DNA of 64,000 bases, from NCBI RefSeq assembly GCF_014642915.1, contig NZ_BMJE01000003.1, forward strand, positions 1 through 64,000. Direction: 5' to 3'. Below the pieces are notes generated by a model. The model was not told the DNA's origin and made no database searches. It was given only the letters and a program-made list of their open reading frames with translations. This stretch comes from Flavobacterium suaedae. GTDB taxonomy: Bacteria > Bacteroidota > Bacteroidia > Flavobacteriales > Flavobacteriaceae. The position numbers were made by a program, and so were the translations under genes. Positions 1-11,246 of the stretch are shown here, piece by piece (the stretch's first letter is position 1; every line of letters starts with the position of its first letter).

Positions 1-1697
1 AAAATTGTACTTTTACTCATGATTCCCAACAAAGTAGATATAAAAGCAAGACGAAAAATGTTGTGAATTGCTTTCAAAATTGTACTTTTACTCATGATTC
101 CCAACTAGAAAACGGTGTAAACGCGATAACAGCAAGTTGTGAATTGCTTTCAAAATTGTACTTTTACTCATGATTCCCAACCTAAACTATAAAAAAAGAA
201 AAGGCTTACTCGTTGTGAATTGCTTTCAAAATTGTACTTTTACTCATGATTCCCAACACATATATTAACCCAGCACAAGGACAAGTGTTGTGAATTGCTT
301 TCAAAATTGTACTTTTACTCATGATTCCCAACCAAAAAATGGTAAAGACTTGGATAGGACTAGTTGTGAATTGCTTTCAAAATTGTACTTTTACTCATGA
401 TTCCCAACCTGCTGGCTATGACTAATAACAATATATCAGTTGTGAATTGCTTTCAAAATTGTACTTTTACTCATGATTCCCAACATCGGGTTTCTTTGTA
501 TCCATACCTTATAGGTTGTGAATTGCTTTCAAAATTGTACTTTTACTCATGATTCCCAACCTGATTACAATGGGAATACGGGAGATACAGTTGTGAATTG
601 CTTTCAAAATTGTACTTTTACTCATGATTCCCAACCTTAAATGTTAGTTCAGAAACATTAAATGAGTTGTGAATTGCTTTCAAAATTGTACTTTTACTCA
701 TGATTCCCAACTAGAAGGCGTATTATTAATCCTACGGGCTTGTTGTGAATTGCTTTCAAAATTGTACTTTTACTCATGATTCCCAACAAAAAACAATGTG
801 CCTTCGGAATTTTACGAGTTGTGAATTGCTTTCAAAATTGTACTTTTACTCATGATTCCCAACGTTTTACCTTACATCGGTGGGTAAAGAGTAGTTGTGA
901 ATTGCTTTCAAAATTGTACTTTTACTCATGATTCCCAACCCGCGCAGGGTGTTACCGCAGCGTTGACTTGTTGTGAATTGCTTTCAAAATTGTACTTTTA
1001 CTCATGATTCCCAACCTTAGCGTTAATGGCTGCTGCCTGCATCATGTTGTGAATTGCTTTCAAAATTGTACTTTTACTCATGATTCCCAACCATATAAAG
1101 GGTAATTACTACTGAATACATGTTGTGAATTGCTTTCAAAATTGTACTTTTACTCATGATTCCCAACAATGTAAAGATGCTTGGAAACATCGTAATGGTT
1201 GTGAATTGCTTTCAAAATTGTACTTTTACTCATGATTCCCAACACACAAACCGAAATTATTAACTACTCTATAGTTGTGAATTGCTTTCAAAATTGTACT
1301 TTTACTCATGATTCCCAACAAGGAAAAGGGTATATGTATGATTGCGAGGGTTGTGAATTGCTTTCAAAATTGTACTTTTACTCATGATTCCCAACCTCCC
1401 ACGTGTCACGAGAAGAGATTTAAAGTTGTGAATTGCTTTCAAAATTGTACTTTTACTCATGATTCCCAACTCGCCCGAACAAATAGAAGCTGACTGGTAG
1501 TTGTGAATTGCTTTCAAAATTGTACTTTTACTCATGATTCCCAACCGAAGCGATACGAGCAACCAATACGTTACTGTTGTGAATTGCTTTCAAAATTGTA
1601 CTTTTACTCATGATTCCCAACCTGTTTACGGTTGGGTGCGACCTAAATGGTGTTGTGAATTGCTTTCAAAATTGTACTTTTACTCATGATTCCCAAC
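1..1697 (+). CRISPR. Type II-C CRISPR array, 22 spacers visible
   Basis: There are 22 complete 46-bp repeats starting at 60, 136, 212, 287, 363, 439, 515, 590, 666, 742, 818, 894, 970, 1046, 1122, 1198, 1274, 1350, 1425, 1500, 1576 and 1652, plus the last 30 bp of another repeat at 1-30. They separate 22 unique spacers of 29 or 30 bp. The repeat starts GTTGTGAATTGC and ends ATTCCCAAC, and I saw no variant repeat. The array continues beyond the window start. The tracrRNA anti-repeat at 7505-7528 is complementary to the plus-strand 5' half of the repeat, so crRNAs must be read on the plus strand, convergent with the cas genes. The repeat carries its own promoter-like elements (see findings). 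Confidence 0.98.
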
Positions 1698-1811: not shown

Positions 1812-2162
1812 TTAAAATAATTCTAATTGTTGCGAAGGCTTTTCAGTATCAACAGATTTCTTACCATAAAAAATTTCCATCATCCCAAATTGCTTATCTG
1901 TTATTTGCATAACGCCCACTTTACCATGAGGAGGTAAATTACCACGTACTCGTTTTGTATGCACTTCAGCATTTTCTCTACTGGCACAAAAGCGCATATA
2001 AATAGAAAATTGAAACATCGAGAAACCATCATCCAAGAGTCTTTTTCTGAATGAAGTGGCTATCTTCCTATCTTTTCGTGTTTCTGTCGGTAAATCAAAA
2101 AATACTAAAACCCACAAACTTCTATACTGGTTTAAACGTGTGTAATAACTATCATCATACAT
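1812..2162 (-). CDS. cas2: CRISPR-associated endonuclease Cas2, type II-C
   Basis: This is the 116-aa Cas2 subunit, which with Cas1 forms the spacer-integration complex. The start chosen is the Met before [14 protein letters not shown] at 2162, which matches the usual Bacteroidota II-C Cas2 N-terminus. An upstream in-frame Met at 2207 would add 15 residues inside cas1 that do not look like Cas2. Visible family signatures are [12 protein letters not shown] early (first beta strand with the conserved Asp), then FSIYMRFC, and a C-terminal [13 protein letters not shown] segment. The gene overlaps the end of cas1 by 8 bp, so the two are translationally coupled. It is the last gene of the cas9-cas1-cas2 operon. 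Confidence 0.95.
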
Positions 2163-3048
2163 ATACAGGATATAAAATTTTCCTTGAAGATCCTTCAAAA
2201 CACTCATGCAATGAATTTGTAGTTCGGCTCATGGCTACCATTAAAGGGCTTTTTTTGCCATCAATAGTAACATCTATAGCAGCAATGCTTAACAGGTGCT
2301 TTTTTATATCAATGGTTAGTTCTTCAAAATTGTCCTCGTTTTCTAAAATATGGCAAACAATTAAATCTACAAATGGTCGATATGGTTCCATAATGTCATC
2401 AGCAAGACAATAAGCATTGTATTTATTTCTATGAAATATCCCTAAAGTTGGTAGCATCCCCGAACTAACTAAAGCTCTTGCTGTAATACCTCGTAATATG
2501 GCATAGCCATAATTAAGTAAATTATTGGGAGGGACTCCATTTTGATGTCTTGTAAAATTTTCTATATCAAATAAATTTTGCCAATAATAAACTGCTGCTC
2601 TCGCTTCGTGGTTAAGTGTGTCACCTGAAGTTACATTTTTTGCCCATTGCTGCATTTTTCTAATGGGCGTGCCACGCTCTTGTAATAATCCTGCCTGATT
2701 TAAAATTTTTGAAGCTACTGTTTGTTGCCACAAATTCTTCTTTAAGGGTAGTGATGCGTTAATTTGACTTTTAAAGCGTTCTGACTGTTCCGTATGCCCG
2801 CTGAGAGGCATAAGAAGCCCTATTGGCATATGCTGCTGATTACAATTTATAATAGCTGCTTTATTGTAAATCAGCTTTTCAAGAAGACCGTTAGTTATAG
2901 TAATTTGCTGATTTTCAAGTACCAGCATACCAATATCTTCGATAGGAACAGTTTTAGTTTCTTCGCTATCAGGATAGGTAACTACAAGTTGTTCATTTTT
3001 AGTGCTTAAATAAGCAGAATTGCCAAAAAACAGAGTACGCTTTATCAT
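2155..3048 (-). CDS. cas1: CRISPR-associated endonuclease Cas1, type II
   Basis: This 297-aa Cas1 is the integrase that inserts new spacers into the array. The N-terminal beta domain begins [15 protein letters not shown]. The C-terminal helical domain holds the expected metal ligands: a Glu in [12 protein letters not shown] (about residue 151), His in GIFHRNKYN (about 205) and Glu in [12 protein letters not shown] (about 220). The length is normal for the family. The gene starts 11 bp after cas9 and overlaps cas2 by 8 bp, so all three are one operon. There is no csn2 or cas4, which fits subtype II-C. Confidence 0.97.
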
Positions 3049-3059
3049 ATCGTGAAGGA

Positions 3060-6000
3060 TTAATATTCACCTATTTGTACTATTTGTCCTAAATGATTAG
3101 CTCTTACTTTTACAATATTCAATAAGGGTGAAGTACTTCTAATATTTTTATATACTATTTCTTTTAATTCTTTTTTCTCTTCAACTGTAGTTTCTAAATG
3201 ATGTCTGAACATATAGTTTTTTGTAGCTATTTTTTGTACTCTAAACAAATTAGGACTGATTATCTCCCTGTTTTTAGGATCAAGTAGATCAATAGCTGCA
3301 GGGTCAAAACCAGTTTCAGTATTTGGGAAAACAAAAAACTCATTTTGTTTCATGGTAAATAAAAACTCCCAGCCATTTTTATGATTTTTATTAATAATAG
3401 GAAGTCCTAAATTTTTGCGCATTACGGCCTCGTAAAAAGAAACTACCTCTTCTTGCAAATTCCCTTTTTCATCCCTGTAAACAGCAACGTGATGATTGTT
3501 ACCTGTACTTACAAAATCAGCAGGGATGGGCTTACCATTCTTATCTAAAATTTCGTTGCCATTATGGTCTTTTTTAGTGTGTAATGCCTCTGCATTACTT
3601 ATACCGCTTATAGTAACTCGTTTTATACTAATATTTTTTTTCTTTTCATTCTCACTTTCATAATATTTTAACCAAATAGGGTTTTCATCAAGATTAGAAA
3701 AAGCCTTTTTGGCATCGCCATATTCATGTAGTCGGTTTAAAAGCAGTTCTCTTACTTTAGCATCAATTACTTTATTGATACTTTTCTCATCTTTAAAGTT
3801 ATCAGGAGTAACCTCTTTCCGTATAGTATATACCTCTATGGGTACTGATATTGCTACCTTGTCCGGTACAACTTGAGTGTTATTGTGAAAATAAACGGGA
3901 TTTTTAGCCAGTGAATTTTTACCTGTAAAAGCTTTTTTAGGATCGTTATCATAGGCTGCTAAGCGCTCTAGCAAAGCATCACGATAGTCTTTTTTTACTA
4001 CTGTATTGATAACCTCGGCGATAAAGTTTACATTTACTTTTTCTTGTTTAGTAACATATTGTGTTATTTTACCATAAACGGTTTCTTTATGCAGTTGTCC
4101 GCGAGGAGTAAGCTGCTCTTTTGTTTTTGTTCCTTTGGCTGTTTTAGTAACATTCTTGTTTTTAGTAACTACTTTATTTTTGGCTTTATACGAAACAATA
4201 ATATTTTCTAAATGTTTTTTTGCTTCTTCCCTGAAGTTTGGAATGGGCGATTTAAATTTTAGTTTGCCCTTATCTTTCGCTAAATATTTTTTCTCAATAC
4301 CCAATATGTTTTTAGCCTTTTTATCATCCTTATTTTTGGCATTAAGATTACTTAAATACTGAATATAAACGTCTTTTGTAAAAGCTACTGTTAGGGCATC
4401 CATAGCGTGATGGCGGTGGTCGTTACGTTTTGTCCAGTCGTTTATTTTTCGTAAACGCTCCCCATTTTTGCCTTCTTCTTCTCTGGTTAGTCCCAATTTG
4501 TGGTATTTTTCCCAATTAAGTTCTTTCATTATCTCAATCAATTGCCAGTCTTCACGCAACCTATCGGTAATACTGCCAATAGTAGTAGTTACGTTTCTTG
4601 AAACTTCCAGCAGTAATTCTTTAGCTTTTTTGGCAATATATTGTGTTTCTCTTTTCTGTCTTTCAATAAACCCTTCCGGGATTTCATTGTCAGGCATTAA
4701 AAGCTTTTTATACTTCGTATATTTTATCTTCCCTGCTTTAAAAAGCTCATTAACCCGGCTTTGGTACTGTTCGAAGTCAAATTCATTATGCTTTTCCTGA
4801 CAGATAGAAAATGCCGTACGATTACTTTTATCAATATTAAACTGTCTTTCACACAATGTTTTATTGGAGAAACTGTCGTCAAATAACCGTGATTTAGGTA
4901 TAATGTGCTCAATATCATACTCTTTCGTGAAAAGTTTAGATGGTTCTATACACTTACCTGTGTAAAGTGATATCCCATTAGTTTCTTTCCATAGTTTATA
5001 GCAGATAATATCATTTCGTGTTACTCTTCGTAAGCCATATTCCGATTTTAGTAATTTTCTTATTTCTTCATGTTCCTTGGTTGCTTTATTTATTGCTCTG
5101 GTAATTTCCCCACGCTGTTCGCTGTTCGCTTTAAGCTCGCGAGCTAACTCTACCCGTATCTCATCGGGCGTACCCATCGTTGGGTCGGCAATAATAGCAT
5201 TAACAACGTTTATCATTTGGTTAAGAATTTTCTCAACCACAGGATTGCGAAGACTGTTCTTTTTTAAAAGTTGAAGTTTTTCTTTCAGATGCCTGTTTTC
5301 ATTCTCTTCCTTTGTTAATAATGAAGAATGGTTATAGCCTGCCCTATCACAGGCTTTATCATAAATGAGCCCATCTTTTAAATAGGGTAAAATCTTTTTT
5401 ATAGCTTTAGCGCTAAGGTTTGCATAATCAGCTTGCAGATCTATATTAGCAATATGGTGTGTATGCTCCGGCTTAAAGCCAAACTTGTCTTGTAATGTTT
5501 TTTTTAGTTTGGTATCATCTTCTGCCGAATAGAGTAGATGCCATAACTGGTAATACGGCTGTTTGTCAAAAGCATCGCCTTGTAGCTCGGCATTAAATTC
5601 TAAAATACGGGTATCAATATTCAGGTCTTTAAATAATGACGCTGTTGTACTCTTTATATCCTCAGCATCCATTTTAGAGAAGTCAAGATTATCTTGCCCC
5701 TCTTGCCGTAAAATAGTTTCAAAAGCTTTATATAATGCTGTATTAGTTCTGTTACCTTCAATTTTTTTAAAGTTAACCTCATGCATTCTTTTATCCAAAT
5801 TAAAGAATTTAAGAAGCTGTAGATCGGTTAAATTATCTTTAAAGTTTAGAGTCTCACTAAGGCTATTTTTAGCATCCTCGTCTAAAAGCAATGTTTCTTT
5901 TGTTTCAGTATTTTTAATAACGATGGCATTAATATTTTGCCATATCCTAAACTCCTGAAATAGTGGAGATGATTTTGGTATTACCCTGTGTTGCTTTTCA

Positions 6001-7136
6001 AATTCGCAATGACTTATTAAATGTTTTTGCGATTTTAAACGCCTTTGGTAAAAAATAGTAATATCCCTAACTTCTTTTCTAAGTGCTTCGGTGAGTTCTT
6101 TATGATGCTTTGATTGTGTTTCCCATATCCTGTCAAACTCATCCATATAATCCTGACGGTAAAACACTTGGTTTTTCAGACTGTTATGCGAATTTTCTAC
6201 AAGTTGTTGGTATAAATACTGACCTACGGTAAGGTTGTTAAAATACAACTTTTTACTACGGTCGCTTATAGCTCCTAAATAACCGCTTGAACCATTAATT
6301 TGATTATTAACCTCTGTTAGTATATAAGCCACTTCTTGTTGAGTTAATTGCTGCTCTAATGCTTTAGCTCGCCATTCATATTGTTGTAGTCTTATTTGCT
6401 CACGGCTTCCTTTATTTTCGGCAAGTTCTATATTAAGTGTTTTAGTAAAGTATTCTAGTGTTTTATTTCTTGGGATTCCTTTTATAACCTCCAGCAACTC
6501 ATCATTAAAAATTTCAGGATAAAATTGATTTTGGAAATGCACAATTTTTTCAAATTCGCTGGTAAGGTCTGAGTGGTAAAAATCAGGGATATAGTTACCA
6601 CCTTCGGATAGACTGGCATATACCCACTGACCAGGAGTGATGTTTTTGTTGTACAATTCTTTGGCTATTGCCATGCCGTCAATTGCCTGGCCATCATCTT
6701 CCGATTTTGCTTTACGGCTGCTTTTATAGCCTCGTTTTTTATTAATCATTAGGAGTACCTTGACTAATTCCTCTTTTGAAATCATCTCGGTTGCTGCTTT
6801 TGCTCTTACTTCATAAGTAGAAAAAGTAGTATTATTTCCATCTTCGGCATACTGGTAATCTTTCGGTATAAATCCCGCTTCTTTAAAAATTTCAAGAAGT
6901 GCTTCACGTCTTAGTTTAAAACGTTGCAAGTTTCTCCTTGCTCCGCGTTTCAGTGTTCTGTCGGCATTGATAGAAATTGTATTTCCTTTTTTAAAGTCCG
7001 ATTCTTCCTCTGTAGTTAGCGGTACAATACGAACTCCGGTGTTTATAATTTCAGATTTTTTGTCGATATCGTCTTCATGCACAAATGCCCAACCTATGGA
7101 TGCTGAACCTAAATCAAGTCCTAATATTTTTTTCAT
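3060..7136 (-). CDS. cas9: CRISPR-associated endonuclease Cas9, type II-C
   Basis: This is a 1358-aa RNA-guided DNA endonuclease of the long Bacteroidota II-C group. RuvC-I is at the N-terminus (ILGLDLGSASIGWAF, catalytic Asp8). The Arg-rich bridge helix follows around residues 64-80 (RGARRNLQRFKLRRE). RuvC-II has Glu at about 663 (EIRVELAREL). The HNH motif YDIEHIIPKSRLFDD has its catalytic His at about 744 and an Asn in SNKTLC. RuvC-III is at about 905-915 (HRHHAMDALTVAF). All catalytic residues are present, so the enzyme should be active. It heads the cas9-cas1-cas2 operon. A consensus Bacteroidota -7 box lies 20 bp upstream, and a predicted guide RNA matches the adjacent -33 region, suggesting autoregulation. 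Confidence 0.98.
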   Translation of the reverse strand: MKKILGLDLGSASIGWAFVHEDDIDKKSEIINTGVRIVPLTTEEESDFKKGNTISINADRTLKRGARRNLQRFKLRREALLEIFKEAGFIPKDYQYAEDGNNTTFSTYEVRAKAATEMISKEELVKVLLMINKKRGYKSSRKAKSEDDGQAIDGMAIAKELYNKNITPGQWVYASLSEGGNYIPDFYHSDLTSEFEKIVHFQNQFYPEIFNDELLEVIKGIPRNKTLEYFTKTLNIELAENKGSREQIRLQQYEWRAKALEQQLTQQEVAYILTEVNNQINGSSGYLGAISDRSKKLYFNNLTVGQYLYQQLVENSHNSLKNQVFYRQDYMDEFDRIWETQSKHHKELTEALRKEVRDITIFYQRRLKSQKHLISHCEFEKQHRVIPKSSPLFQEFRIWQNINAIVIKNTETKETLLLDEDAKNSLSETLNFKDNLTDLQLLKFFNLDKRMHEVNFKKIEGNRTNTALYKAFETILRQEGQDNLDFSKMDAEDIKSTTASLFKDLNIDTRILEFNAELQGDAFDKQPYYQLWHLLYSAEDDTKLKKTLQDKFGFKPEHTHHIANIDLQADYANLSAKAIKKILPYLKDGLIYDKACDRAGYNHSSLLTKEENENRHLKEKLQLLKKNSLRNPVVEKILNQMINVVNAIIADPTMGTPDEIRVELARELKANSEQRGEITRAINKATKEHEEIRKLLKSEYGLRRVTRNDIICYKLWKETNGISLYTGKCIEPSKLFTKEYDIEHIIPKSRLFDDSFSNKTLCERQFNIDKSNRTAFSICQEKHNEFDFEQYQSRVNELFKAGKIKYTKYKKLLMPDNEIPEGFIERQKRETQYIAKKAKELLLEVSRNVTTTIGSITDRLREDWQLIEIMKELNWEKYHKLGLTREEEGKNGERLRKINDWTKRNDHRHHAMDALTVAFTKDVYIQYLSNLNAKNKDDKKAKNILGIEKKYLAKDKGKLKFKSPIPNFREEAKKHLENIIVSYKAKNKVVTKNKNVTKTAKGTKTKEQLTPRGQLHKETVYGKITQYVTKQEKVNVNFIAEVINTVVKKDYRDALLERLAAYDNDPKKAFTGKNSLAKNPVYFHNNTQVVPDKVAISVPIEVYTIRKEVTPDNFKDEKSINKVIDAKVRELLLNRLHEYGDAKKAFSNLDENPIWLKYYESENEKKKNISIKRVTISGISNAEALHTKKDHNGNEILDKNGKPIPADFVSTGNNHHVAVYRDEKGNLQEEVVSFYEAVMRKNLGLPIINKNHKNGWEFLFTMKQNEFFVFPNTETGFDPAAIDLLDPKNREIISPNLFRVQKIATKNYMFRHHLETTVEEKKELKEIVYKNIRSTSPLLNIVKVRANHLGQIVQIGEY

Positions 7137-7155: not shown

Positions 7156-7185
7156 CAAATTTAAAAAAATAAAAAACTCATCACA
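7156..7185 (-). promoter_or_regulatory. Predicted cas9 promoter
   Basis: On the minus strand 7163-7156 reads TAAATTTG, a perfect match to the Bacteroidota -7 consensus TAnnTTTG. The -33 element is weak: TGTG at 7185-7182, 18 nt away. Transcription should start near 7149, leaving a leader of about 13 nt before the cas9 ATG at 7136. The -33 region overlaps the 10-nt sequence complementary to the predicted guide (7180-7189). Confidence 0.6.
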
Positions 7186-7189
7186 TTGA
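7180..7189 (-). promoter_or_regulatory. Predicted Cas9 self-target in the cas9 promoter
   Basis: The minus strand reads TCAATGTGAT here, identical to 7333-7342 on the plus strand, the 10 nt directly 5' of the stand-alone half repeat at 7343. In a type II guide those bases would be the seed. The 3' flank on the protospacer strand is GAGTTTTTTATTT, where a PAM would have to lie. The next base 5' mismatches, so pairing is about 10 nt, which is in the range that gives binding without cleavage in known Cas9 autoregulation. This is inferred from sequence alone. Confidence 0.5.
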
Positions 7190-7310
7190 TATATTTTATT
7201 ATTTTTATATATTTGTAATGTAAATTTTGATTCTCTGTTGACGAACAGGTTTTAAGTGGGTCCAAACCATTCTTGTATTGATCCCGAGTTAATATACTTA
7301 ATTTGCATTT

Positions 7311-7362
7311 TTATGCAACGTAACATGACATGTCAATGTGATGTTGTGAATTGTTTTCATAT
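7311..7362 (+). ncRNA. Putative natural guide RNA (scaRNA/tracr-L-like) with half repeat
   Basis: Positions 7343-7359 match the first 17 nt of the CRISPR repeat with one change, C to T at repeat position 12. That change restores pairing with A7518 of the tracrRNA, where array repeats have a C-A mismatch, so this half repeat pairs with the anti-repeat over 16 bp with one wobble and no mismatch. A -7-like box TTAATTTG at 7298-7305 would start an RNA near 7311, giving about 32 nt of guide before the repeat, the geometry of a crRNA. The guide also contains a perfect palindrome TGACATGTCA (7326-7335). The RNA could end alone or run on into the tracrRNA to 7583 as a natural single guide. No terminator is seen before the tracrRNA. 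Confidence 0.5.
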
Positions 7363-7471
7363 TATTTAAAGAGGTCATAATTATGATTTATTTATTTGTT
7401 AAAAGTAATGAAGTATTCTAAAAAGAACATCCCTATTATTAGGTATTTTTTAGATATTCGTAAAAATAAAG

Positions 7472-7501
7472 TTGTAATCAAAAAAATATTTTGTATAATT
7501 G
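7472..7501 (+). promoter_or_regulatory. tracrRNA promoter
   Basis: TTG at 7472-7474, a 19-nt spacer, then TATAATTG at 7494-7501. This matches the Bacteroidota promoter pattern with one mismatch in the -7 box. The predicted start, near 7507, falls at the first bases of the anti-repeat. Confidence 0.65.
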
Positions 7502-7504
7502 TAT

Positions 7505-7583
7505 TACAATTTTGAAAACAATTCGCAATAAGGATTATTCCGTTGTGAAAACATTCAATGCGGTCTTCGGATCGCATTTTTTT
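7505..7583 (+). ncRNA. tracrRNA of the type II-C system
   Basis: The anti-repeat at 7505-7528 pairs with repeat positions 2-25 over 24 bp with one G-U wobble and one C-A mismatch. It is followed by a small nexus-like hairpin (GGATTATTCC at 7532-7541), a linker, and a terminator hairpin in which TGCGGTC (7559-7565) and GATCGCA (7570-7576) close a TTCG tetraloop before seven T (7577-7583). The RNA is about 75-80 nt, divergent from cas9. It fixes the transcription direction of the array as plus. Confidence 0.92.
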
Positions 7584-7607
7584 AACCCTATACAATACGT
7601 ATAAATT

Positions 7608-8696: not shown

Positions 8697-8879
8697 ATGA
8701 AAAAAATATATTTATTATTGCTTACGGTTTTCCTCAATATCACATTTTCTTCGTGTACTACTGAGGATTTAACAGATGTGAAAAATGATGCGGTAAGGGC
8801 AGATGATTGCTGTGGTGAAGATGGAGATATCCCCCCACCACCTCCACCGCCTCCAATCGATACGGGGTTGAAGGGATAA
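8697..8879 (+). CDS. Small Pro-rich lipoprotein, possible signal for the adjacent sensor kinase
   Basis: This is a 60-aa protein. Residues 1-20 form a lipoprotein signal peptide with lipobox FSSC, so the mature peptide is only about 41 residues. It contains a Cys-Cys pair (DDCCGEDGD), a run of eight prolines and the end IDTGLKG. It lies 42 bp upstream of the histidine kinase on the same strand. A tiny exported peptide beside a two-component system with a periplasmic TPR sensor suggests a ligand or co-sensor, but this is inference. No family is recognised. Confidence 0.65.
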   Translation: MKKIYLLLLTVFLNITFSSCTTEDLTDVKNDAVRADDCCGEDGDIPPPPPPPPIDTGLKG

Positions 8880-8921
8880 TATTTAATTATCGGATATAAA
8901 AAGATTGTTTAATTTAGAGGG

Positions 8922-10577
8922 ATGAAAGAACTAAAGCACTTCTCCCTCTTTTTTTATTTTGTAATAGCTATTTATTACATAAATCCACAATACTTATACT
9001 CACAGCAAACAAACAACGATAGCTTGAGATACTACTATGATAAAGTAATTAATCCCTCCGATAGTAATGATTTAATTGATGCTTATTCTTTTTACAAGAG
9101 AAATACTCAAAAACCATTAATTAATAATGATACTTTGCTTGTAATAAATAATATGAGGCTACTAGCAATAATTCAATTTAATTGGGGGGCTTTGCAAGAC
9201 AGTGAGGAAACTTCTGTGTCGGCACTAAAGTTACTGGATGATTTAAAAGACTCGCCACAATCGAGAGAAGCTAGAGTAGGAATTTATAATCAGTTAGGAA
9301 AGATATATAGAGGTTTTGATAATAAAAATATGGCTCTAAAGTACTATAATAAAGCCTTATCCTTTTCAACAAAACTTAATGACAGCCTTACTATATTAAA
9401 CAATAAAGCAAATATATATAGAGACCTTAAACAATATGACAAAGCTATAGCTGAACTTTCAAAAGTTTATAAAAAAGGTTTGGAGATACAAGATACCCTT
9501 CTAATAACCTTCGCCTTAGATAATTTAGGATTTGTTCAGTCAAAATTAGCGATGCCAGAAGGAATAACAAACTTAAAAAAATCACTCGATTATAGATTAA
9601 AAATCGGAGATACTAAAGGGTCATACAGCAGTTTAGCTCACCTTTCCGATTACTATAAAGAGGAAGGTGATAAGAATTCAGCAATCGCATATGCTGATAG
9701 AGCCTATGAAATAGCAGAAGAAATAAAAAGCAGCAACTTTATTGAAGATGCACTAGCCCGGACGTTAAAGCTTTATGATGATGAAAAAGTCTTAACCTAT
9801 ATAAGATTGGATGAGAATAATAAAAAGACTAAAAATGAAATACAAAACAGAAATGCTTCCATGAAATATGATTTCACTAAAGAAAAGCGCAGGGCAGATG
9901 AAAACGAGCTTTTAAGTGAAAAAGAAAAAAGAAGAGCCCAGATATTTTTATTATTGGGTATTTCAATTCTTTTGTCAGGGGTGTTATTAATTTTGTATCT
10001 AAGGGCGAGGTACAAAAGAGAAAAACTATTACAAGTTTATAATACAGAAATAAGAATATCAAAAAAAATCCATGATGAGGTCGCTAACGACGTATATCAT
10101 GTTATGTCAAAAATACAATCAGATAATTATAATGTTTTAGATAACTTAGAAAGTATTTATAATAAAACAAGAGATATATCCAGGGAAAATAACACCATCG
10201 ATTTAAAGGAGAAATTTAATGACTGTTTATATGATATGTTATTAAGTTTCAAAAACGATAGCACTACAGTGATTACGCAAAATTTTAATAAAGTAAATTG
10301 GAATCAGCTATCCGAAATTAAGAAAAATACTACTTACAGAGTACTGCAAGAGTTAATGATAAATATGAAAAAGCATAGTAATGCCACTCATGTAGTGATT
10401 AAGTTTAATCAGGAAGGTAACAAATTAGCAATAGACTATAAAGATAATGGTAAAGGGTGTACACTGAATAAAACCGGAGGTTTGCTAAATGTGGAAAACC
10501 GTATAAAAACAATTAACGGGACTGTTACATTTGAATCAGAAGTTAATAATGGCTTTAAAGTCAATATAAAAGTGTAA
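8922..10577 (+). CDS. TPR-containing sensor histidine kinase (HisKA_3 type)
   Basis: This 551-aa membrane sensor has a signal peptide at residues 1-28, a periplasmic tetratricopeptide region at about 70-290 (repeats such as NMALKYYNKAL and QYDKAIAELSKVY), a coiled stretch, and a membrane helix at about 341-362 (LLLGISILLSGVLLILYL). The HisKA_3 dimerisation box KIHDEVANDVYHVMSKIQ has the phospho-accepting His at about 384. The C-terminal HATPase domain is compact, with an N-box ELMINMKKHSNAT and the G-box DNGKGC. It ends 3 bp before the response regulator, so the two form one two-component operon. Confidence 0.9.
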   Translation: MKELKHFSLFFYFVIAIYYINPQYLYSQQTNNDSLRYYYDKVINPSDSNDLIDAYSFYKRNTQKPLINNDTLLVINNMRLLAIIQFNWGALQDSEETSVSALKLLDDLKDSPQSREARVGIYNQLGKIYRGFDNKNMALKYYNKALSFSTKLNDSLTILNNKANIYRDLKQYDKAIAELSKVYKKGLEIQDTLLITFALDNLGFVQSKLAMPEGITNLKKSLDYRLKIGDTKGSYSSLAHLSDYYKEEGDKNSAIAYADRAYEIAEEIKSSNFIEDALARTLKLYDDEKVLTYIRLDENNKKTKNEIQNRNASMKYDFTKEKRRADENELLSEKEKRRAQIFLLLGISILLSGVLLILYLRARYKREKLLQVYNTEIRISKKIHDEVANDVYHVMSKIQSDNYNVLDNLESIYNKTRDISRENNTIDLKEKFNDCLYDMLLSFKNDSTTVITQNFNKVNWNQLSEIKKNTTYRVLQELMINMKKHSNATHVVIKFNQEGNKLAIDYKDNGKGCTLNKTGGLLNVENRIKTINGTVTFESEVNNGFKVNIKV

Positions 10578-10580
10578 TAT

Positions 10581-11246
10581 ATGTTTTCTAGAGTAATAGT
10601 AGCTGACGATTTGGGCAGCATAAATCAAGGGGTAAAAGGTGTTTTAACTAATTTAGGTATACATACTATAGAGCAGGTTCAATATTGTGATGATGCTTAT
10701 TTAAAAATAAAAAAAGGCATTAAAGATAACCAACCCTATCAGCTTCTTATAACTGATTTATCCTTTAAAAAAGACCATAGGGAACAAAAATTAGTTTCGG
10801 GAGAGGCGCTTGTTGAAGCACTTTATAAAGAATCAATTGATATTAATATAATTGTTTTTTCAATTGATGACAGGCTGCAAAAAGTAAGAAGCCTTTTCCT
10901 TAATTTTAATATCAACGCTTATGTTTGTAAAGGGCGTAAGGGTTTGGATGAATTAGCTATAGCAATTATAGATAATTATGCCAAAAAGCAATACCTTTCT
11001 CCAGCAGTAAAAAATGCATTAAGCGAAAAACTCGATTTGGAAATATCTGATTATGATATACGAATAATAACGGAATTATCTAAAGGCATGTCTCAAGACC
11101 AAATTAGCATTTTATTTAAGGAACAAAATGTATCTCCCTCCAGCTTAAGTTCTATAGAAAAGAGAATAAATAAACTAAAAGATCAGTTTCAGGCTGTTAA
11201 CACAACCCACCTTATTACTATAGTAAAGGATATGGGGTTAATATAA
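10581..11246 (+). CDS. Response regulator, partner of the TPR kinase
   Basis: This 221-aa regulator has a receiver domain with the acidic pair ADD near residues 9-11, phospho-acceptor Asp59 in LLITDLSF and the conserved Lys in YVCKGRKG. The C-terminal domain is a LuxR-like helix-turn-helix (about 150-215, SDYDIRIITELSKGMSQDQI). The HTH is somewhat divergent from FixJ/NarL, which is usual for the regulators paired with TPR kinases in Flavobacteria. It is translated from the same operon as the kinase and is likely to act as a transcription factor. Targets are not visible. Confidence 0.88.
   Translation: MFSRVIVADDLGSINQGVKGVLTNLGIHTIEQVQYCDDAYLKIKKGIKDNQPYQLLITDLSFKKDHREQKLVSGEALVEALYKESIDINIIVFSIDDRLQKVRSLFLNFNINAYVCKGRKGLDELAIAIIDNYAKKQYLSPAVKNALSEKLDLEISDYDIRIITELSKGMSQDQISILFKEQNVSPSSLSSIEKRINKLKDQFQAVNTTHLITIVKDMGLI

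Follow-up and report, generated by a model that had tools for sequence, protein, structure and literature searches.

The type II locus of Flavobacterium suaedae and its solitary half repeat

The first 64,000 nucleotides (nt) of contig NZ_BMJE01000003.1 of Flavobacterium suaedae, hereafter the window, carry a type II CRISPR (clustered regularly interspaced short palindromic repeats) locus of II-C make-up, in which an array, cas2, cas1 and cas9 are accompanied by a trans-activating CRISPR RNA (tracrRNA). No csn2- or cas4-like frame was noticed in the list of open reading frames between the array and the tracrRNA, a list for which no profile search was made. Between cas9 and the tracrRNA lies a single half repeat, preceded by ten nucleotides that match the cas9 upstream region. 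This element, part of a putative gene for a guide RNA that would lead Cas9 to its own promoter, is the subject of the present work. The features assigned at the locus are as follows (PAM, protospacer adjacent motif).

60..1697, plus strand: CRISPR array with 22 identical full 46-nt repeats and an extra cut repeat at the window start
1812..2207, minus strand: cas2 (TIGR01573 match)
2155..3048, minus strand: cas1 of NMENI type (TIGR03639 match)
3060..7136, minus strand: cas9, 1358 amino acids (TIGR01865 match), with RuvC, HNH and HHAMDA motifs intact
7156..7163, minus strand: predicted cas9 promoter -7 box TAAATTTG, a perfect TAnnTTTG
7175..7179, minus strand: inferred PAM GAGTT (NRRTT), a flank pattern common to six of eight loci with window-like Cas9
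7180..7189, minus strand: predicted self-guide target, reading TCAATGTGAT on this strand, an exact 10-nt match to 7333-7342
7208..7215, plus strand: predicted guide-RNA promoter -7 box TATATTTG, a perfect TAnnTTTG 18 nt beyond the target
7219..7307, plus strand: structured leader, with covariation and a match to covariance model R1
7219-7226/7300-7307, plus strand: closing stem of the leader
7235-7248 (loop GACG), 7257-7269 (loop GTCCAAA) and 7276-7294 (loop CCCGA), plus strand: leader hairpins
7308..7342, plus strand: putative guide, whose seed at 7333-7342 matches 7180-7189
7343..7359, plus strand: half repeat GTTGTGAATTGTTTTCA in array-repeat orientation, predicted partner of the tracrRNA antirepeat
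7367..7394, plus strand: weak terminator-like hairpin (-3.5 kcal/mol)
7504..7578, plus strand: tracrRNA, with antirepeat at about 7504-7529, core at 7527-7554 and terminator at 7557-7578

A first-pass annotation of this DNA had called the stand-alone half repeat at 7343-7359, on the plus strand and in array orientation, and we confirmed it there. Searching the 3.18 Mb genome with the half-repeat pattern at up to one mismatch returned 31 sites, namely 22 in the window array, eight on contig C1 and the one at 7343, which is the sole copy of the 5' half of the repeat outside the arrays. The eight sites on C1 (G000:C1:417670-418217) are further identical repeat starts at array spacing, and are possibly the remainder of the window array across an assembly gap. 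The half repeat differs from the array repeat at one position only, a T at position 12 that restores identity with the tracrRNA side. The annotation had also held that it fits the tracrRNA better than the array does; this is so over the common 17 nt (-20.9 against -16.6 kcal/mol) and is reversed over 24 nt, where the array repeat pairs at -25.6 and the half repeat at -21.5 kcal/mol.

The ten nucleotides directly 5' of the half repeat (7333-7342) are identical to the minus strand at 7180-7189, as had been claimed, and dinucleotide shuffling of the 236-nt region gave a match as good in 9 of 20,000 cases. The 10-mer occurs six times in the genome, guide and target included; in combination with NRRTT it occurs once, at the cas9 promoter. 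The target lies 17-26 nt upstream of the perfect cas9 -7 box, which bears out its earlier placement across the -33 region of the predicted cas9 promoter.

Guides and targets in related loci

Related loci were collected by Cas9 protein searches of 150 genomes from the genus and 397 from the family, to which 49 named loci were added, and by tracrRNA-core pattern searches of 395 genomes of the order (56 of which held the pattern), 158 of genus g241, from another family of the same order, and 396 of the class. The resulting 248 loci were reduced to 219 distinct ones by dropping 13 without a cas9 N-terminus, eight without a tracrRNA core and eight duplicates. The core was required within 1.2 kb on the expected strand, and half repeats were scored solely by complementarity to the antirepeat of their own locus.

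A half repeat between cas9 and the tracrRNA was found in 17 of the 219 loci, and for 16 of these the guide has a perfect match of 8-14 nt to the minus strand of its own cas9 upstream region. In the 17th, L190, the match runs for 6 nt and, after one mismatch, for 5 more; a weaker, probable 18th locus, L212, shows 7 nt, one mismatch and 4 more. All ten half-repeat loci at the strictest score hold a guide match, and a seed of at least 8 nt at the best-pairing position was seen in 2 of the 202 loci below threshold. Summed over the 17 loci, the matches of guides to their own upstream regions reached 185, a value attained in none of 100,000 permutations (maximum 137), and swapped pairs gave a mean of 4.4 nt. 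Thirteen of the 272 swapped cells reached at least 8 nt. Twelve of these lie within a set of four loci that have one seed in common (L120, L122, L138 and L164); seed position 9 is G in L122 and A in the other three, a change present in guide and target alike. At background positions of the same loci, matches of at least 8 nt were seen in 188 of 4929 cases and of at least 10 nt in 40 of 4929. The combination of half repeat and own-upstream match is conserved in relatives, which the first-pass annotation had named as a check on its proposal: it recurs in 18 of the 219 loci, and within the genus of the window L084 is the only further scanned locus that shows it.

In all 18 loci with a guide, cas9 and the tracrRNA lie at least 300 nt apart, a distance reached in eight loci without one; the 193 loci with a shorter distance are all guide-less. 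L138 and L164 carry a tandem duplication of promoter, target and leader at 1-290 upstream of cas9, with target and leader fold present in both copies. Array repeats could be retrieved in 14 of the 18 guide loci. In five of them the half repeat departs from the array towards its own tracrRNA (at position 12 in the window, 9 in L014, 16 in L122, and 11 in both L138 and L164), and in L120, L143 and L150 it equals the array over positions 2-16 with no departure at all.

On a tree of Cas9 N-termini, which covered 215 of the 219 loci, the 18 guide-bearing tips need 18 presence changes, so that presence is scattered and points to repeated gain, loss or transfer; the guide-bearing Cas9 proteins are only about 32% identical to each other. 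The RuvC motif DLG/DIG..SIG is kept in all 22 Cas9s examined, and the HNH and HHxxDA patterns were found in all of them except L084 (HNH) and L132 (HHxxDA). With the catalytic motifs intact, a self-guide matching over its full length would presumably do harm.

An exploratory second class comprises 29 further solo-repeat matches, on the other strand or beyond the tracrRNA. Ten of these were chosen for 9-11 nt matches nearby and so form a selected set, and the remaining 19 include second antirepeats and likely chance matches. The ten, on the strand opposite to the tracrRNA, belong to L132, L220, L240, L103, L144, L161, L171, L165, L166 and L047. For L220 and L132, the matched sequence is a promoter's -33 zone; transcription from this promoter would cross the guide towards cas9, and the half repeats would there sit in the cas9 leader. 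In L132, L240, L161 and L171 the guide is preceded on its 5' side by a transfer RNA (tRNA) gene of the same strand, the target being located beyond the tRNA gene in the first two and between it and the guide in the last two. By eye, the guides of L103, L144, L165 and L166 (about 490-630 upstream of cas9) match their own promoter zone with a 1-nt bulge, to which L144 adds one mismatch; L165 and L166 also show by eye a short open frame downstream, reminiscent of CreTA-like modules.

The sequences flanking the targets were compared between Cas9 groups. In one distinct clade, defined by C-terminal comparison (L248, L120, L122, L138, L164, L143, L190 and L132), eight of eight targets are flanked by NNAAANA, against a background of 2.9%. 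NAAAC was found in six of six loci of a second group (background 1.3%), made up of L102, L159 and L103, with C-terminal identities of 88-92%, and of L144, L165 and L166, which were put near them by the N-terminal tree only. NRRTT flanks the target in six of eight window-like loci (the window, L014, L018, L031, L084 and L220; background 3.7%). Six of the grouped loci (L132, L220, L103, L144, L165 and L166) come from the exploratory class; L150, L212, L240, L161 and L171 were left ungrouped, and L047 fits NRRTT and was left out of the count. The common flanks within Cas9 groups suggest PAMs, and these are suggestive rather than measured since the patterns come from the same flanks and some of the loci are related.

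Whether the flank of the window target fits the PAM of its Cas9 had been raised in the first-pass annotation. GAGTT does agree with the NRRTT of the window-like loci, a PAM inferred from targets, and spacer mapping gave no convincing protospacer, neither in 50,697 phage records, compared with the window array and with four others, nor in IMG/VR, searched with four spacer 3' ends. Weak spacer matches to Vibrio, Cellulophaga and Staphylococcus phages (E 0.1-0.5, 83-89% identity) were not counted. The strong phage matches fell on repeat-like elements, in 11 records of Riemerella phages and one of a Shigella phage. One Riemerella phage (OR089151.1, L249 at 1500-1750) contains a small intergenic array with repeats like those of the window, and further Riemerella phages match the repeats, e.g. 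HQ396194.1 (L270).

Promoters, leader RNA and terminators

Twelve of the 18 loci have, at most 60 nt from the target, a box in cas9 direction that fits TAnnTTTG strictly (the window, L018, L031, L084, L102, L120, L122, L143, L150, L159, L190 and L248). In guide direction, a perfect box starts 6-28 nt beyond the target in 14 of the 18, the window box at 7208-7215 being one of them; the density of such boxes in the searched stretches is 0.0039 per position. Judged from these boxes, the guide promoter of the window is most likely that at 7208-7215. The -7-like box at 7298-7305, to which the first-pass annotation had assigned this role, is imperfect and was rejected, as 7300-7307 forms the 3' side of a stem that closes a conserved fold. 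With its promoter most likely at 7208-7215, the RNA would carry a long structured 5' leader. The predicted divergent promoters of cas9 and guide flank the target, which would thus fall into the -33 zone of each.

The leader was aligned in 12 hand-trimmed rows from ten of the 18 loci, and its three hairpins carry the loops GACG, GTCCAAA and CCCAAG in most rows. Sixteen of the 19 pairs are altered on both sides in at least one row. The alignment holds 58 doubly changed cells against 18.8 +/- 3.3 after shuffling (0 of 500 shuffles as many) and 6 to 18 with the partner strand slid. Own strands of the closing stem were compared with swapped ones over 11 loci, and 0 of 20,000 permutations equalled the own pairing; the G-U pairs of the leader are consistent with the guide strand.

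The covariance model R1, trained on these 12 sequences including that of the window, has the window leader as its sole match in the window's genome, at 73 bits. Among eight held-out guide loci it matched L212 and L071 and missed L014, L018, L027, L031, L084 and L248, so that the leader is either not universal or too diverged; the other 58 loci searched gave no match. In g241 the model matched 9 of 173 genomes, all nine guide-bearing and each with its match at the cas9 locus, and 316 genomes of g241's family (that of G757) returned the same nine and none new, strict filters being used in both searches. All nine g241 loci had served to train R1, and the part put to the test is therefore absence elsewhere. 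The shape of the leader and its 7-nt GTCCAAA loop resemble a tRNA cloverleaf. ARAGORN called no tRNA in L001 or L190, the leaders of ten loci belong to no Rfam family, and virus contigs gave no match with two patterns. On this evidence, the leader is a new covarying four-stem RNA family absent from Rfam.

A strong terminator hairpin stands right 3' of the half repeat in 11 of the 18 loci (-11.9 to -17.9 kcal/mol), and in a coarser scan -11 was reached at nine of 18 half repeats against four of 720 control positions. The arrangement in L027 (G306) is of another kind: at 301-590 upstream of cas9, guide, half repeat, loop, second antirepeat and tracrRNA form one unit, which is followed by the ordinary tracrRNA, and a 12-nt seed matches the cas9 upstream region. 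As predicted from its sequence, L027 is an explicit natural single guide.

Elsewhere in the window, the stretch 8697-11246 holds, by eye, a frame for a small predicted secreted peptide of 60 amino acids with a proline-rich end, and then frames resembling a sensor kinase and a response regulator.

Proposed self-repression of Cas9, rival explanations and known systems

We propose that 7208-7360 is most probably the gene for a small RNA resembling a CRISPR RNA (crRNA). Paired with the tracrRNA, this RNA would direct Cas9 to the promoter of cas9 itself, where the 10-nt match would permit binding and a block of transcription and no cutting. The own-upstream matches in 18 of the 219 loci lend support to what the first-pass annotation had put forward, a candidate Cas9 self-repression guide in a type II-C system. 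Transcription would start at about 7219, driven by the box at 7208-7215, and the RNA would consist of the four-stem leader, a guide of some 35 nt and the half repeat of 17 nt, which would pair with the tracrRNA in trans. Cas9 is predicted to bind its promoter through the 10-nt match and to block transcription there without cutting. Given that both predicted promoters have the target in their -33 zone, one bound Cas9 would silence cas9 and the guide together. The outcome would be a homeostatic loop that opens once ordinary crRNAs or an anti-CRISPR occupy Cas9. A bolder version, which we regard as tentative and on balance doubtful, is that of a self-shutting Cas9 switch evolved repeatedly in the II-C systems of Bacteroidota, whose cloverleaf leader, a new RNA family joined to the 5' side of the guide, would be cut by the tRNA-processing machinery to free the guide, as in a natural tRNA-gRNA fusion, one bound Cas9 again silencing cas9 and guide; in some loci a real tRNA gene lies 5' of the guide.

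Several observations weigh against self-repression as a general property of these loci or against parts of the proposal. No guide was found in 201 of the 219 loci, and the device is absent from all eight named Flavobacterium loci with upstream sequence (two others come without such sequence). The 8-nt seeds of L031 and L084 are not significant alone, being equalled in 1026 and 599 of 20,000 shuffles, respectively, and since 8-nt background matches are common, such single short seeds are weak by themselves; in both loci the match resumes, by eye, for at least 10 nt past a bulge (2 nt opposite 1), as though an originally longer self-spacer had been weakened. Departures of the half repeat that do not match the tracrRNA of the locus occur at position 16 in L014, L018 and L159, 2 in L084, 12 in L102, 11 and 15 in L071, and 4 and 14-16 in L212. 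Six of the 18 targets are without a strict cas9 -7 box nearby, some of them showing near-consensus boxes. The window leader alone prefers another fold (-17.7 against -11.5), and the window terminator is weak (-3.5 kcal/mol). With regard to the flanks, L027 (CAAAC) and L071 are equally close to the window Cas9, yet unlike NRRTT, C-terminal similarity splits the NRRTT and NAAAC groups imperfectly, and the flank patterns were defined after the flanks had been seen.

Given the weak terminator, read-through into the tracrRNA and a long form like tracr-L, the guide-bearing RNA of Streptococcus pyogenes, would be possible. The stretch from 7360 to 7512 showed no strong terminator, 7345-7358 pairs with the antirepeat at 7514-7527 in the folds predicted for 7311-7590 and for 7219-7590, and in L027 a single unit comprises the guide, the half repeat, a loop and another copy of the tracrRNA. 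Even so, that guide, half repeat and tracrRNA of the window are one long transcript, a natural single guide, seems to us unlikely: the tracrRNA has a -7-like box of its own at 7494-7501, if an imperfect one, and strong terminators directly follow the half repeat in 11 of the 18 loci. We give much less credence to an addiction module of CreTA type, in which the guide would chiefly silence a fused harmful structured RNA and cas9 alongside it. That the target falls in the -33 zone of the promoter predicted for the guide itself would suit such a module, as would the ten opposite-strand half repeats, partly selected so, that match near their own units, four of them beside tRNA genes, and the haloarchaeal CreT is described as an RNA in the available part of its account (PMC12737573). 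Leader and guide nevertheless fall within one predicted transcript, and it is the cas9 upstream region that is matched in 18 of 18 loci.

The two remaining explanations are, in our estimate, extremely improbable. An inverted repeat between divergent promoters is, as is generally known, a common operator layout, and the 10-nt pair might thus serve a protein regulator of both promoters; its sequence, however, varies by locus and always abuts the half repeat exactly, and the target flanks partly follow the Cas9 groups. Equally remote is a relic repeat of a decayed array beside a chance match. It would agree with the half repeat being a truncated repeat, but 17 of 17 half repeats have an upstream match (one of them mismatched), against 188 of 4929 other positions at 8 nt or more, and leader and terminators are conserved.

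For type II-A there is experimental support that Cas9 represses itself through its own guide, and CreRs (cas-regulating RNAs) have been described for types I and V-A; if the self-repressing guide proposed here is real, the same solution would be scattered through type II-C. Natural seed-only guides, some of them bulged behind the seed (L031, L084), would show an active nuclease binding its own chromosome without cutting it. From the targets, PAMs can be proposed for groups of as yet uncharacterised Cas9s, and the leader would be an RNA family outside Rfam with a directly testable function.

Among known systems, tracr-L of the S. pyogenes II-A locus is, in the parts of its accounts available, alike in having a partly matching guide, its own cas promoter as the site of action, a PAM-flanked site, an 11-nt match and negative feedback (PMC11417352, PMC12216829); in the same species an 11-nt match on a separate crRNA with the short tracrRNA also represses the cas promoter, according to the text available (PMC11417352), a design equal to the one proposed here. 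The guide described here likewise matches its own cas promoter in part, over 10 nt in the window and in 18 of the 219 loci. Unlike tracr-L as so described, it would in most loci be an independent half-repeat RNA that has a leader and in many cases also a terminator to itself, its target is common to two predicted divergent promoters, and its locus, with cas9, NMENI-type cas1 and cas2, is II-C and not II-A. The first-pass likening to tracr-L and the small CRISPR-Cas-associated RNA (scaRNA) consequently stands in part: a mostly separate RNA of scaRNA or CreR kind agrees with the 11 terminators, and a tracr-L-like form does not for most loci.

The scaRNA, known from the II-B system of Francisella novicida and predicted in some II-A and II-C systems (among the latter those of Neisseria and Pasteurella), is portrayed in the available portion of its account as a repeat-like RNA outside the array with a transcription start site, a terminator and expected pairing to the tracrRNA (PMC6199352). 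The half repeat, too, is repeat-like, lies outside the array and is complementary to the tracrRNA (17-nt duplex, -20.9 kcal/mol). The scaRNA differs in being proposed to act on other genes in virulence, and its text contains no mention of Flavobacter, Bacteroid, cas9 promoter or autoregulat (PMC6199352). The scaRNA of Neisseria meningitidis is similarly a small RNA at a type II-C cas locus, but, as far as the available text goes, it acts on efeO mRNA with no detectable Cas9 contribution in vivo and is not presented as a cas9-promoter guide (PMC13431127). CRISPRCas_38, the tracrRNA of Bacteroidetes II-C systems, which was compared by description only, typically lies at most 100 bases from cas9, like most of the 201 guide-less loci, and the part of the description available covers neither guide nor leader (PMC9067536). 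No cas9-promoter self-guide in type II-C was found in the literature searched, subscription papers and preprints lying outside its coverage.

CreRs of types I-B, I-E and V-A are crRNA-like RNAs that partly match the cas promoter and repress it, and the available parts of their accounts name no type II system (PMC13131331, PMC12737573). The element of the window has the same traits, a predicted crRNA-like RNA with a degenerate repeat and a partial match to the cas promoter. It differs from CreR as known from those parts in its effector, which would be Cas9 with tracrRNA in place of type I Cascade or Cas12a, in its 17-nt half repeat and in its four-stem leader. We read it as a putative type II-C counterpart of tracr-L and CreR, whose principle is known and whose subtype and architecture would be new.
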